A DNA stretch of 46,567 nt from Chloroflexota bacterium (GTDB lineage: Bacteria > Chloroflexota > Dehalococcoidia > Lucifugimonadales > Lucifugimonadaceae): NCBI GenBank assembly GCA_002721675.1, contig PBLC01000003.1, forward strand, positions 1-46,567, read 5' to 3'. Under the pieces are notes generated by a model. It made no database searches, was not told where the DNA came from, and was given only the letters and a program-made list of their open reading frames with translations. Both the position numbers and the translations under genes were made by a program. Shown here in pieces: positions 41,162 through 46,567 of this stretch. Position 1 is the first letter of the stretch. The number at the start of each line of letters is the position of its first letter.

Positions 41162-41788
41162 ATGGATATTAAATATAAAATAGAACTTGAAGAAGCCGTA
41201 TCTGAATTAGAATCGGGAAAAATTATTACTATTCCGACTGATACTTTTTATGGCCTAGCTTGTGATGCAACAAATAAAGTTGTTGTTAATAACTTATTTG
41301 AATTAAAGGAAAGAGGAGTGGATAAGCCAGTCCCATTATTGATAGCGGACCTAGAGGATTTGAATAAATTCAATGCTAATGTAACCGGAATAGATAAATT
41401 AATTAGCAAATTTTGGCCAGGTCCGTTAACTTTAATTTTAGAAACAGACTATAACTTTCCTTTAGGTACGGTTAAAAATGATGGATCTGTGGCTTTTAGG
41501 GTTCCGGACCTTAAATTTACAAGGGATCTTATTAGAGTTTTTGGTAAACCATTAACTGGTACAAGTGCAAATATCTCTAACTTCCCAGAAACAAAAAATT
41601 TAGATATTTTGAAAGACAACCTTAAAGGGAAGAGCATAGGAAAATTTGTTGATATTAAATGCGGAGAAGAAGACCTTCCATCTACAGTTATAAAGATAGA
41701 AAAAAAGAAAATAATAATAATTAGGGAAGGCTCAATTTCTAAATCCTTGCTAGAATCTGAATTAGGAAAGAGTTTTATTTATGAATAA
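41162..41788 (+). CDS. tsaC: L-threonylcarbamoyladenylate synthase (Sua5/YrdC/TsaC family)
   Basis: The 208-residue protein has the YrdC core: GKIITIPTDTFYGLACDA, RGVDKPVPLLIADLEDL with the K-P-x-P anchor, FWPGPLTLIL and VAFRVPD...TGTSANIS. It lacks the extra C-terminal domain of Sua5. It makes the activated intermediate for the t6A37 modification of ANN-decoding tRNAs. It is the first gene of a six-plus-gene overlapping operon that also holds miaA, another A37-type tRNA modification gene. It overlaps the next start by 8 nt. TATAAT at 41134-41139 may be its -10 box. Confidence 0.88.
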   Translation: MDIKYKIELEEAVSELESGKIITIPTDTFYGLACDATNKVVVNNLFELKERGVDKPVPLLIADLEDLNKFNANVTGIDKLISKFWPGPLTLILETDYNFPLGTVKNDGSVAFRVPDLKFTRDLIRVFGKPLTGTSANISNFPETKNLDILKDNLKGKSIGKFVDIKCGEEDLPSTVIKIEKKKIIIIREGSISKSLLESELGKSFIYE

Positions 41789-42782
41789 TGAATTTGAAAA
41801 ATATATGTCTGAATTTGTGAACGTTAATGAAGTTGATTTGTATAGGATTATAAAATATCAACTTGGATGGGGGGATGAATTTGGAAACGATTCTAGTTAC
41901 AGCAAAGATATAAACAGGATTTATTCTTCCATAGTATTAGAAATCTGCTCAGTATTTTCTGACGACATTAAGCCTAGTTATCAGTTTGCAACTTCTATAG
42001 AAATATTAGCTAATTCTTGGTATGTGCATGAAGATGTTCAAACTGGAATTACGGAAAGAAATGGAAGATCATCAGTTTGGTGGGCTTGGGGACCTGCGCA
42101 AGGAATTAATACAGGAGACGGTCTTCACGCATTAGCGAGACTTTCTTTATTAGAGAACAATTCAAAATTTAATGAAACACTTCTTTTAAAAGCACTATCT
42201 ATATTTGATTCATCTTATTTAACCTTATGTGAAGGAGAAAACCTAGATATAGATTACCAAGAAGCCCCTTTGGTTAGTGAAGAAAAATTTATGAATATGT
42301 TAAAAAAAAGATCGGGCTCTCTATCTAGTTGCGCTTTTCAGTTTGGATATATCGCATCAGATCCAAGCATTAGTAATATTAATGAAAAAAAATTAGGAAT
42401 TATTAAAGAGTTGGGAGAAATAAGTGGAGTTGTAAGAGAGTTAAATTCACAAAATTTGATTATTGATTCAAGAAATCTTCCCACAGAAATATTCCATAAA
42501 TTTTCTTCTAAGAAAAAGAATATTATTACCACCTATTTATTAAATAATTCTGATATTTCAACTAAAAGAAAAATAGGTGAAATGTATCTAAAGAGAGTGC
42601 TAGAAGTAGAAGACCTAGAAGCATTAAAGAAAGAAGCATTGGCAAGCAATTATAAGGATTATGTTTCAAATTTAATTAGTGATTATAAATCAAGGTCTTT
42701 GGAAATCGTTAATGACCTAGAGTTAAGTGATAACCAAAATAAAAAAATATTGACCACAGTATTGCCATATGAAACTTTTTAA
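41781..42782 (+). CDS. Degenerate polyprenyl-synthase homologue
   Basis: The 333-residue protein keeps the shape of a trans-polyprenyl diphosphate synthase over its first 190 residues: ANSWYVHEDVQTGITERNGR at 77-96 in place of the LLHDDIxDxxxxRRG motif, AWGPAQGINTGDGLHALA, a GENLDI segment and KRSGSLSSCAFQFG. But the first aspartate motif is reduced to HEDVQT, and the second DDxxD motif is absent; the region around 208-225 reads LGEISGVVRELN. It is therefore probably not a normal prenyl synthase, perhaps a regulatory partner or a new activity. It overlaps pgk by 14 nt. Confidence 0.7.
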   Translation: MNNEFEKYMSEFVNVNEVDLYRIIKYQLGWGDEFGNDSSYSKDINRIYSSIVLEICSVFSDDIKPSYQFATSIEILANSWYVHEDVQTGITERNGRSSVWWAWGPAQGINTGDGLHALARLSLLENNSKFNETLLLKALSIFDSSYLTLCEGENLDIDYQEAPLVSEEKFMNMLKKRSGSLSSCAFQFGYIASDPSISNINEKKLGIIKELGEISGVVRELNSQNLIIDSRNLPTEIFHKFSSKKKNIITTYLLNNSDISTKRKIGEMYLKRVLEVEDLEALKKEALASNYKDYVSNLISDYKSRSLEIVNDLELSDNQNKKILTTVLPYETF

Positions 42783-43911
42783 CTTAGATGATTTAAAAAA
42801 TGACTTTAAGAATTCCGATATAAATGTTTTTTTAAGGTGTGATCTAAATATAACTGAGAATGACTATACAAGAATTGATCTTTCAGTTCCTACAATAAAT
42901 GAACTGCTGGAATTGGATTCTGTTAAGAAATTAATTATATGTACTCATCTAGGGAGACCCGAGAGAAGTTTTGATCCTGAATTAAGTACTAAAAATAAAA
43001 TAAAACCATATTTAGAAGAAAAACTAAGAAAGGCAATCATTCACTTAAACTTAAATGATGATGATGATATTGATAAATTAATGAAAAAATCAGGTAAATC
43101 GATTTACTTAACTGAAAATATACGTTTTTATGACGGAGAAACAAGTAACGGTATTGAGTTAATTAACAAAATTAAATCTATTTCTGATGTATATGTAAAT
43201 GATGCTTTTGGAGCCTCGCACAGGATGCACGCAAGTGTTTACGGGATATCTAACAAAATTAAATCTTATGCAGGGAGGTTATTAGAGAAAGAGACAGAAG
43301 TAATTGACTCATTGGGTACCTCAAAATCTAACACTACCTTAATACTTGGAGGGGCTAAAATTAAAGACAAAGTAGGAATACTAATGAGTTTAGCTGATAA
43401 GGTTCAGAGCATACTAATTGGGGGAGGGATGGTTTCAAGTTTTTTAACTGAAGATTTTCCTGAAACATTTAATAAAAAGGTTTACGAAGATAATAGAGAT
43501 AAATTTTTCATACCTATTGATTTAGTTACTGTTAAAGATTTATCTCCTGAAAGCAAAACAGAGAAAATTGATTCAGAATTATTTAACAAGGACACATTTA
43601 TTATAGATATTGGGTCAAAAACTATAAAAAAGTATTCAAAAATAATCAATAAGTCTGAAACAGTAATTTGGAATGGAAGCATGGGTATTTTTGAGTGGGA
43701 GTCTGGATGTTTAGGTACAAAAGAATTAATCAAATCTATAATGGATAGTAAATGCATGACATATGCAGGCGGTGGCTCAACTATTGAATCAATTAATTCT
43801 TTTGGGGATAAAGACTCTTTTGATCATATTTCAAGTGGGGGAGGAGCTTTTCTTGAATTGCTTGAAAGTGGTAGTCTTGTTGGAATAGATAACTTAATTA
43901 AAAATGAATAA
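42769..43911 (+). CDS. pgk: Phosphoglycerate kinase
   Basis: The 380-residue protein shows PGK landmarks: FLRCDLNIT in place of R-D-x-N-V-P near 21-29, THLGRPE, ENIRFYDGE, VNDAFGASHRMHAS, ILGGAKIKDKVGI and AGGGSTIESI. Length is slightly below the usual 390-400. It transfers phosphate between 1,3-bisphosphoglycerate and ADP. It overlaps the previous gene by 14 nt and tpiA by 8 nt, in the common pgk-tpi pairing. Confidence 0.92.
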   Translation: MKLFNLDDLKNDFKNSDINVFLRCDLNITENDYTRIDLSVPTINELLELDSVKKLIICTHLGRPERSFDPELSTKNKIKPYLEEKLRKAIIHLNLNDDDDIDKLMKKSGKSIYLTENIRFYDGETSNGIELINKIKSISDVYVNDAFGASHRMHASVYGISNKIKSYAGRLLEKETEVIDSLGTSKSNTTLILGGAKIKDKVGILMSLADKVQSILIGGGMVSSFLTEDFPETFNKKVYEDNRDKFFIPIDLVTVKDLSPESKTEKIDSELFNKDTFIIDIGSKTIKKYSKIINKSETVIWNGSMGIFEWESGCLGTKELIKSIMDSKCMTYAGGGSTIESINSFGDKDSFDHISSGGGAFLELLESGSLVGIDNLIKNE

Positions 43912-44635
43912 ACTTTTTATATCAAATTGGAAAATGAATCTCACTGTGCCTGAAGGAATTGAATTTTCCGATGAAATTTCTAGAATCATAAATAAAAGTA
44001 TTATCAACGATAATATTGAGATAATTATATGCCCTCCTTTTATTTCTATTCCTAACTGTTTTCAAGTTCTTAAGTCTGTAGCAAAAATTGGGGCTCAAGA
44101 TGTATCAGGTATGCATGACGCAAAAGGTGCCTATACAGGTGAAATATCAGCAAATATGATTTCAGATTATGCTGATTATGTGATTATAGGTCACTCTGAA
44201 AGAAGGATTAATTTAAATGAGACAAATCACGATGTTTCTTTAAAAGGCATTAATGCCTCAAAGAACAATATAACTCCAATATTATGTATTGGAGAGACAG
44301 AAGAACAAAGAGATTCAGGAGAATATTTATCTATATTACTCAATCAATTAGGCGAGAGTTCTGTAGGGTTTGAAAAAAATATGATAGTAGCATATGAACC
44401 TATTTGGGCAATTGGTTCTGGAAATTCTTGTGAGACGGCACAAATAATTGAAATATCAAAGCAGGTTAAGTCATCATATGGAGATGAAACTCCATTTATT
44501 TATGGTGGGAGCGTAAACGAAGATAATTGCAAAGAAATATTAGATCAAAAGGAAATTGATGGGGTGCTTGTTGGTTCAGCCTCATTGAGTCTTGATAGTT
44601 TTAGTAAAATGATAAACTTGATTGATAGTGATTAA
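43904..44635 (+). CDS. tpiA: Triosephosphate isomerase
   Basis: The 243-residue TIM barrel has the three catalytic signatures: SNWKMN with the lysine, IIGHSERR with the histidine, and AYEPIWAIGSG with the glutamate. The phosphate-binding IYGGSVNEDN is also present. It interconverts dihydroxyacetone phosphate and glyceraldehyde 3-phosphate. It overlaps pgk by 8 nt and miaA by 8 nt. Confidence 0.94.
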   Translation: MNKLFISNWKMNLTVPEGIEFSDEISRIINKSIINDNIEIIICPPFISIPNCFQVLKSVAKIGAQDVSGMHDAKGAYTGEISANMISDYADYVIIGHSERRINLNETNHDVSLKGINASKNNITPILCIGETEEQRDSGEYLSILLNQLGESSVGFEKNMIVAYEPIWAIGSGNSCETAQIIEISKQVKSSYGDETPFIYGGSVNEDNCKEILDQKEIDGVLVGSASLSLDSFSKMINLIDSD

Positions 44636-45542
44636 TAAATCTATTGTAATAGTTGGCCCAACTGCTTCAGGAAAAACTGACCTTTCAATAAAACTAGCAA
44701 AAAGAATTGATTCGCCCGTCATTAATACTGACTCTAGGCTTTTTTACAAAAACTTAGATATTGGGACTGGAAAGCCTTCGAAAGCCCAGAGATTGGACGT
44801 AAAACATTACTTAGTAGATATAATAAACCCTAGAGATAACTTTTCTATCTCAGAATTTGTTAAAAAAGCCAGTCAAGTTATATCGCAAATTCATACAAAA
44901 AAAAGAATCCCAATCCTTGTAGGAGGCAGCGGGCAGTATACTAAAGCGCTAGTCGAAGGGTGGGATATTCCAGAGATTCCTCCAAATAGCGAACTAAGAA
45001 AATCTCTTCAGGAAATTATTGATGACAAAGGTGTGGATTTTTTTTATGAAAAATTAAAAAAAGATTTTCCTGAAAATGCTTTAAATATTGATAAAAAGAA
45101 CCCTAGAAGATTGATAAGAGCCTATGAATTGGGAAAAAATAATATTGTAAGGATGCCAAAAAGTAAAAGGGAACCTGATTCATATAAATTATATGGGTTA
45201 ACTTTGGATAGAAAAGTTTTATATTCTAGAATTGATGAAAGAATCAATAAGATGGTTGATAGCGGATGGGTAGAAGAGGTAAAAAAATTAATTGACCAAG
45301 GGTGCAATTCTGATTCTAACTCCTTTTCAAGTATAGGATATAAGGAAATTTATTCGTATATAATGGGTGACACTGATTTGGAAGAGTCGATATCTGTTAT
45401 TAAAAAAAAGACTAGAAATTTAGTTAGGCATCAATATAATTGGTTTAAACTAAGTGATCCAGAGATAAAATGGTTTGATATGGGTAGTTATTCTCAAGAT
45501 GAGATAATTAATAAAATAGTTAAGGATTTTAATGAAAATTGA
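44628..45542 (+). CDS. miaA: tRNA dimethylallyltransferase
   Basis: I use the GTG at 44628, which gives 304 residues and an 8-nt overlap with tpiA; a TTG two codons earlier is possible. The P-loop is GPTASGKT, followed by NTDSRLFY, VGGSGQY and the QRLDVKHYLVDIINP segment. It adds dimethylallyl to A37 of tRNAs that read UNN codons. The length is normal for MiaA. It overlaps dapF by 11 nt. Confidence 0.92.
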   Translation: MINKSIVIVGPTASGKTDLSIKLAKRIDSPVINTDSRLFYKNLDIGTGKPSKAQRLDVKHYLVDIINPRDNFSISEFVKKASQVISQIHTKKRIPILVGGSGQYTKALVEGWDIPEIPPNSELRKSLQEIIDDKGVDFFYEKLKKDFPENALNIDKKNPRRLIRAYELGKNNIVRMPKSKREPDSYKLYGLTLDRKVLYSRIDERINKMVDSGWVEEVKKLIDQGCNSDSNSFSSIGYKEIYSYIMGDTDLEESISVIKKKTRNLVRHQYNWFKLSDPEIKWFDMGSYSQDEIINKIVKDFNEN

Positions 45543-46392
45543 ATTTACTAAATATCATGGCGCAGGTAATGACTATATAGCCGTAGATGGCAGAGGACTA
45601 GATTTAGATTGGGGTCTTCTATCTAAGGAAATGAGTAAACCTCATTTTGGTGTTTATAGTGACGGTATAGTAGTTGTAAAAGAGTCTGATGTTGCAGATA
45701 TAAAGATGAGAATATTTAATCCGGACGGCTCAGAGGCTGAAATGAGCGGAAATGGGGTGCGTCTATTTTCTAAATTTGTACTTGATAATAAAATAATTGA
45801 ACCAAGTTCAAATACTCTTAAAGTCCAAACAGGTGGAGGAGTAAGAGAAGTGTACCCTCAATTCAATGATAATCTTATGATTTCAGCTAAAGTTGCTATG
45901 GGTCAACCTGGCTTTTTAAGAGATGAAATACCTTTAAACAATCAGTTGATATCCGAGAACATAGAAATTCAAGATTTTAGATTGGATTTAGGTGACCAAG
46001 AATTATTTGTAAATTGTGTAAATATAGGTAATCCTCATGCGGTAATGATTACCGATGTAGATATTGATGAAATTGATTTAGAAAGAATAGGGCCTTTAGT
46101 GGAAAACAATATTCTTTTTCCAAACAGAATAAACTTTGAGGTCGTAAATATTATTTCAAAGGATGAAATAAGAGCTAGAATCTTTGAAAGAGGGGCAGGG
46201 GAGACTCTATCTTCTGGAACTGGAACCTCTGCATGTGGAATTATTTGCATAAAAAAGGGTTTGGTTAATGAAAATGTAAAAGTAAATGTGCCAGGCGGAT
46301 TTCTAAATATAAGTTGGTCTATTGGTCAAGACGTATATTTAGAGGGGCCGACAGAGAAAGTTTTTTCAGGCACATGGGAATTAAGGAGTTAA
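45532..46392 (+). CDS. dapF: Diaminopimelate epimerase-like protein with both catalytic cysteines replaced by serine
   Basis: The 286-residue protein follows the DapF plan: FTKYHGAGNDYIAVD at the N-terminus, FNPDGSEAEMSGNGVR near 62-77, VNIGNPHAV, and ERGAGETLSSGTGTSACGI at 219-237. In DapF the first signature is CGNG and the second GETxACGTG, and their two cysteines are the acid/base pair. Here they are Ser72 and Ser228, read directly from AGC and TCT codons. All other landmarks are kept. The next gene looks like dapL, supporting a role in lysine synthesis, but activity is doubtful or altered. It overlaps miaA by 11 nt. Confidence 0.85.
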   Translation: MKIEFTKYHGAGNDYIAVDGRGLDLDWGLLSKEMSKPHFGVYSDGIVVVKESDVADIKMRIFNPDGSEAEMSGNGVRLFSKFVLDNKIIEPSSNTLKVQTGGGVREVYPQFNDNLMISAKVAMGQPGFLRDEIPLNNQLISENIEIQDFRLDLGDQELFVNCVNIGNPHAVMITDVDIDEIDLERIGPLVENNILFPNRINFEVVNIISKDEIRARIFERGAGETLSSGTGTSACGIICIKKGLVNENVKVNVPGGFLNISWSIGQDVYLEGPTEKVFSGTWELRS

Positions 46393-46393
46393 A

Positions 46394-46567
46394 ATGAAAT
46401 TTTCTAAAAGATTTGACACTATTGAGCCATACTTATTTGTTGGGATATCAAGAACCATAGCTGAGAAAAAAGAAAAAGGGATAGATGTAATTTCATTTGG
46501 AATTGGAGATCCTGATATACCTACCCCAAAATTTGTTTTGGATTCTATGAAAAAACATTCTGATAAT
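46394..46567 (+). CDS. dapL: Probable LL-diaminopimelate aminotransferase, N-terminal part (runs off window)
   Basis: ATG at 46394 follows the dapF stop by 1 nt and is preceded by AAGGAG at 46383-46388, so the start is well supported. The 58 visible residues contain the N-terminal class I aminotransferase features: FDTIEPYLFVGISRTIAEKK and ISFGIGDPDIPTP. This matches LL-diaminopimelate aminotransferases and relatives, and dapF directly upstream favours DapL. The rest of the gene lies outside the window. Confidence 0.72.
   Translation, partial: MKFSKRFDTIEPYLFVGISRTIAEKKEKGIDVISFGIGDPDIPTPKFVLDSMKKHSDN

Follow-up and report, generated by a model that had tools for sequence, protein, structure and literature searches.

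A dapF gene with serine at both catalytic positions

Paired catalytic cysteines are a textbook feature of diaminopimelate epimerase (DapF) and its enzyme class, a choice that is justified by the low pKa and the easy desolvation of thiols. The window studied here, a stretch of 46,567 nucleotides from a draft genome of the Chloroflexota (GTDB family Lucifugimonadaceae), contains a dapF gene in which both cysteines are replaced by serine. This raises the question of whether its product can still convert LL-diaminopimelate (LL-DAP) to meso-DAP, or whether it has been put to some other use. The relevant features of the window are the following.

43904..44635, + strand: tpiA, belonging to the conserved gene neighbourhood tpiA-miaA-dapF-dapL-hflX
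44622..45542, + strand: miaA, sharing 11 bases with the start of dapF
45532..46392, + strand: dapF, Ser/Ser variant of the diaminopimelate epimerase gene, ATG start, 286 amino acids
45745..45747, + strand: codon AGC of Ser72, replacing the first catalytic cysteine (Cys73 in Haemophilus influenzae, Cys83 in Corynebacterium glutamicum)
45763..45765, + strand: codon of Leu78, a clade-specific change from a conserved non-catalytic cysteine
46183..46185, + strand: codon of Phe218, a clade-specific change from Trp, adjoining the DAP ligands Glu219 and Arg220
46213..46215, + strand: codon TCT of Ser228, replacing the second catalytic cysteine (Cys217 in H. influenzae, Cys221 in C. glutamicum)
46394..46567, + strand: 5' end of dapL (LL-diaminopimelate aminotransferase), running beyond the end of the window (full open reading frame at L174 395-1555)

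An earlier note on this DNA had read serine at both catalytic positions. This is confirmed by the open reading frame, which contains GSEAEMSGNGVRLF (first motif) and ERGAGETLSSGTGTSA (second motif), and by phmmer alignments in which Ser72 and Ser228 coincide exactly with the catalytic cysteines of solved DapF proteins. The product scores 232 bits with the curated model TIGR00652 (cut-off 114.65) and 159 bits with PF01678 (cut-off 34.7); DAP_epimerase is its sole Pfam match, and it does not fall into the proline racemase superfamily (PF05544). The two catalytic cysteines typical of DapF are absent. Judged by its sequence, the gene is a full-length dapF ortholog by descent which fails one defining catalytic feature and whose function is a matter of prediction.

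The description of dapF as part of a tight operon holds, with miaA overlapping dapF and dapL beginning at 46394, immediately after the dapF stop codon. Model NF006756 identifies the downstream gene as encoding an LL-DAP aminotransferase (569 bits for a 91%-identical ortholog, cut-off 507). Like an orthologous locus, the window has dapF next to dapL and near miaA and tpiA. The order tpiA-miaA-dapF-dapL-hflX, whole or in part, is common to Ser/Ser and Cys/Cys genomes, dapF lying directly before dapL in both, and this shared gene order supports the orthology of the Ser/Ser protein. On the contig past the window (L174 395-2705), dapL and the gene following it contain many ambiguous bases. The same gene cluster includes a polyprenyl synthetase homologue (window 41781-42782, + strand; PF00348, 56 bits) with a degraded first Asp-rich motif (HEDVQTGITERNG); a pattern search found no intact second Asp-rich motif in it. 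Other genera of the family have homologues at this locus, reading, for example, HEDVQNANTERN in G020 and HDDIRDGNSERD in G035, and the protein is possibly a second enzyme with an altered active site.

The Ser/Ser form is fixed in one family

Exactly one DapF is encoded in 67 of the 76 genomes of the window's GTDB family, among them all 26 high-quality genomes and members of all 12 genera; the nine genomes without DapF are all incomplete drafts (55-83%). The window's own genome, a draft of 0.98 Mb in 25 contigs that is 77% complete, has one DapF as well. A further DapF of the Cys/Cys type, combined with a lack of conservation, had been named as a mark of decay; such a copy was sought, and no second DapF turned up in the 77% of the window's genome that is covered or in any of the 76 family genomes. 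The Ser/Ser pair is present in 66 of 66 full-length family orthologs, and each of the two catalytic columns reads serine in 67 of 67 readable family sequences. Since no readable family ortholog lacks either serine, the two are not a sequencing accident. Whether the pair is conserved in a clade, as the earlier note had asked, can be answered in the affirmative: it is fixed in the 12 genera. Ser72 is encoded by AGC or AGT and Ser228 by all four TCN codons, and the sampled loci span 29 to 65% GC. We infer that the family belongs to the marine SAR202 group I; its small low-GC genera resemble genome-streamlined SAR202 (PMC11994032).

The other families of the order contributed 62 sequences, 60 of which are Cys/Cys, one Ser/Cys (G049) and one unreadable (G099). 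In other phyla, all of 64 DapF sequences, retrieved with peptide patterns that exclude the catalytic motifs, are Cys/Cys. A maximum-likelihood tree (quick search) places the Ser/Ser proteins in one clade with an SH-aLRT value of 100, nested among Cys/Cys families. When 400 Chloroflexota genomes were scanned with a DNA pattern for motif 1 covering the AGY serine codons, matches were confined to the window's family. The corresponding phylum-wide pattern for motif 2 (TCN) matched the family and two places outside it: the match in G509 (L294) lies in no DapF reading frame and that in G620 looks like chance.

The DapF of G049 (L104/L192, family f14) combines serine at the first with cysteine at the second catalytic position and has Asp instead of Asn74 (MSGDG). 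It was considered as a transitional form and rejected as such: it does not stand beside the Ser/Ser clade in the tree, its serine is encoded by TCC, and in G099, the closest relative, the first catalytic codon reads TGN, most likely cysteine. G049 thus stands alone and does not represent an intermediate stage.

With an incomplete draft of 25 contigs as the source of the window, a decaying gene, an assembly error or a contaminant has to be considered, but the same substitutions recur in 67 genomes with low dN/dS (medians within genera of 0.05-0.18, indicating strong purifying selection), intact frames and conserved synteny, which makes such an explanation exceedingly improbable. Neither the relaxed selection nor the unconserved altered state of a pseudogene was seen. 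Fixation in 12 genera, the single copy and the low dN/dS bear out the earlier view of a coordinated change as opposed to decay.

Remodelling of the active site

Seven residues are invariant in the clade yet rare elsewhere (Ala17, Ser72, Leu78, Ile217, Phe218, Ser227 and Ser228), and six of these changes lie within the 30 residues of the first and second catalytic motifs (p about 5e-6 by the hypergeometric test, for windows chosen post hoc). Position 78 is Leu in 66 of 66 family members as opposed to Cys in 61 of 62 sequences from the rest of the order. Together with the two catalytic residues, the replacement of Cys78 by Leu and of Cys233 by Ser or Thr means that the active-site region has lost all four of its conserved cysteines. 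A cysteine at position 162 has been gained, being fixed in the Ser/Ser family (66/66) versus 17/62 in the rest of the order. The cysteine content of DapF is 0.70% compared with 1.58% in Cys/Cys forms, the largest drop in the operon; MiaA is slightly lower (0.19% versus 0.42%), and TpiA and DapL are without clear depletion, all as judged from few Cys/Cys comparators. As other proteins of the operon show little or no loss, a general loss of cysteine was discarded as the cause.

In C. glutamicum DapF, alanine replacements of N15, N74, N85, N159, N194, E212, R213 and T223 nearly abolish activity (PMC5296763). The window equivalents of these eight DAP ligands, N13, N63, N74, N167, N201, E219, R220 and T230, are all kept, with a conservation of 97% or more within the clade. 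The earlier statement that all other signatures are intact is hence correct for the DAP-binding residues; it does not apply to the surroundings of the motifs, where Cys78 is replaced by Leu, Cys233 by Ser or Thr, Trp218 by Phe and Ala227 by Ser.

An AF2 model of the window protein (pLDDT 94.2) has the two-domain DapF fold, and its nearest solved folds are all DapF proteins (TM up to 0.92). Its central helices comprise residues 73-85 and 229-241, so that Ser72 and Ser228 are predicted to be helix N-caps, as the cysteines are in DapF.

Lysine pathway and peptidoglycan

LysA, the decarboxylase of the lysine pathway, is matched in all 26 high-quality genomes of the family and scores above the cut-off in 66 of 76. 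Three candidates for a substitute of DapF were rejected in the 76 family genomes: a second copy is absent, DAP dehydrogenase scores above the cut-off in none, and the proline racemase family (PF05544) is present in only two (L295 in G077 and L296 in G030, about 328 bits). LL-DAP must therefore reach LysA either as meso-DAP produced by the Ser/Ser protein or directly.

No MurE above the cut-off was found in 60 genomes of the order, be they Ser/Ser or Cys/Cys, and published SAR202 genomes are without peptidoglycan synthesis (PMC10444878; PMC11994032). Both support the earlier supposition that the cell lacks peptidoglycan. As the specific cause of the Ser/Ser form this loss is insufficient, because the Cys/Cys families of the order are without MurE as well.

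The LysA proteins of the family have a fixed change from Ala to Ser (YSxKAF) two positions ahead of the PLP lysine (for example L269, G000:C15:14000-15700). This position is Ser in 28 of 28 clade members versus Ala in 22 of 23 LysA sequences from the order's other families. The clade also has Asn116, Thr139, Leu177 and Tyr234 as fixed residues and retains the family motifs CxSGD, EPGR and HLGS.

What the Ser/Ser protein may do

Three options had been put forward for this protein, namely that two serines work, that it has a new substrate, or that it is a non-catalytic partner, and our data favour the first. We assign a probability of roughly 0.55 to the reading that the Ser/Ser DapF continues to convert LL-DAP to meso-DAP, with Ser72 and Ser228 in the role of the thiol/thiolate acid-base pair. 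It is supported by the retained ligands, the signature of selection, the otherwise complete pathway and a natural example with the same fold, a Ser/Cys member of the proline racemase superfamily that is active as a 4-hydroxyproline epimerase and whose serine works on one face (PMC4113996). The broader proposal, that we are dealing with a natural cofactor-independent amino-acid epimerase which employs two serines as base and acid throughout a family, in a remodelled thiol-free active site, has in our estimation about an even chance of being correct.

According to this proposal, Ser72 and Ser228, located at the N-termini of two facing helices, would act as a two-face acid-base pair. The serines would serve as the catalytic bases in the turnover of LL-DAP, and the neighbouring changes (Ala17, Leu78, Phe218, Ser227, Thr/Ser233) may tune them. 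Such an enzyme is probably slow, but a slow rate could suffice because there is no peptidoglycan to supply and because cultured SAR202 relatives grow slowly, at 0.18-0.24 per day (PMC10444878). Assuming roughly 10^7 lysines in a cell and about 10^3 copies of the enzyme (rough textbook numbers and estimates of our own), we estimate that about 0.1 turnovers per second would cover the demand for lysine; the value for C. glutamicum DapF is 58 per second (PMC5296763).

Several observations speak against catalysis by two serines. Single Cys-to-Ser mutants of a related histidine racemase are greatly impaired, Cys-to-Ala mutants of C. glutamicum DapF are almost inactive (PMC5296763), and thiols are favoured on chemical grounds (PMC8142540). 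The catalytic Ser of proline-racemase-type enzymes is reportedly positioned by an Asn located three residues further along (PMC4113996); its absence from the window motif, which reads Ser-Gly-Asn-Gly, likewise counts against the proposal, and we found no Ser/Ser cofactor-independent racemase or epimerase in the searchable literature. As for a possible advantage of serine, C. glutamicum DapF has a redox-switch disulfide between its two cysteines and loses activity in peroxide (PMC5296763), and it is tempting to speculate that escape from this type of inactivation is one such advantage.

The main rival to a Ser/Ser epimerase is a LysA that decarboxylates LL-DAP directly, with the Ser/Ser protein being kept as a DAP-binding protein, for example a carrier, a sensor or a partner of DapL or LysA in a complex. 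If LysA accepted LL-DAP, epimerase activity would be dispensable. The fixed serine beside the PLP lysine (YSxKAF in 28/28, Ala in 22/23 elsewhere in the order) speaks for this model, as does the fact that nothing else needs meso-DAP in a cell without peptidoglycan; furthermore, LL-DAP accumulates in E. coli dapF mutants (PMC6254735). However, LysA of the clade keeps CxSGD, EPGR and HLGS, the few changes specific to this LysA are dispersed over its length, in contrast to the pattern in DapF, and a non-catalytic protein has little reason to retain eight DAP ligands in 12 genera. We regard a bypass via LysA as fairly unlikely, though likelier than the other rivals.

A purely non-catalytic role was also considered, in which the protein acts as a partner in the way that E. 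coli DapF does with the RNA pyrophosphohydrolase RppH, while an unrelated enzyme performs the epimerisation. E. coli DapF with both cysteines changed to alanine still binds and stimulates RppH (PMC4227774), but such a role leaves the retention of every DAP ligand and of the dapF-dapL-lysA set unexplained, and no alternative enzyme of the DapF fold or the Ddh type is common in the clade; we consider it improbable. The same low standing is given to another type of reaction, such as an elimination or a one-face proton exchange, with a substrate resembling DAP. A Ser/Thr enzyme of the same fold is a trans-3-hydroxyproline dehydratase (PMC4113996), and some clade-specific changes, among them Phe for Trp218 and Ala at position 17, lie beside ligands. 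Against this stand the conservation of all DAP ligands and the position of the gene directly before dapL in Ser/Ser and Cys/Cys genomes alike; moreover, the meso-DAP step would be left unfilled.

Should the Ser/Ser proteins be epimerases, an entire clade would epimerise an unactivated amino-acid α-carbon without thiols or cofactors; otherwise, the clade would reveal a route to lysine that avoids meso-DAP. A Ser/Ser DapF should be untouched by thiol-reactive inhibitors and by peroxide. Automatic pipelines would label these proteins DAP epimerase without any warning because they exceed the curated cut-off. Among the papers listed by a targeted full-text search of incomplete literature coverage, none reports a naturally occurring DapF in which serine takes the place of the catalytic cysteines, and a literature search subject to the same restriction yielded no paper dealing with DapF together with SAR202.

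Comparison with known systems

The closest known proteins are the DapF enzymes of the Cys/Cys type (TIGR00652), with solved representatives from H. influenzae (1GQZ), C. glutamicum (5M47), a cyanobacterium (9MRO) and Acinetobacter baumannii (5HA4). The window protein shares with them full-length homology, the fold, the conserved locus beside dapL and the eight DAP-ligand residues; it differs in having serine for both catalytic cysteines, Leu for Cys78, Ser or Thr for Cys233, Phe for Trp218 and Ser for Ala227. Among its near fold matches are the H. influenzae variants C73S (2Q9H) and C217S (2Q9J), each with serine at one catalytic position, which in contrast to the window protein are single mutants made in the laboratory; a solved DapF with serine at both positions was not among the fold matches.

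The Ser/Cys 4-hydroxyproline epimerase and the Ser/Thr dehydratase (PMC4113996) resemble the window protein in their fold class and in having a natural catalytic serine at the first position. Unlike the window protein, they belong to another family with other substrates, have Cys or Thr at the second position and differ in the local motif. The histidine racemases HisR and CntK share the DapF fold and use a two-base mechanism, and serine mutants have been made and solved; the natural enzymes, however, are Cys/Cys, and the serine mutants of HisR are greatly impaired. Finally, the complexes of E. coli DapF with RppH (6VCK, 6D13) illustrate that a DapF fold can act without catalysis, although natural E. 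coli DapF is Cys/Cys and active.
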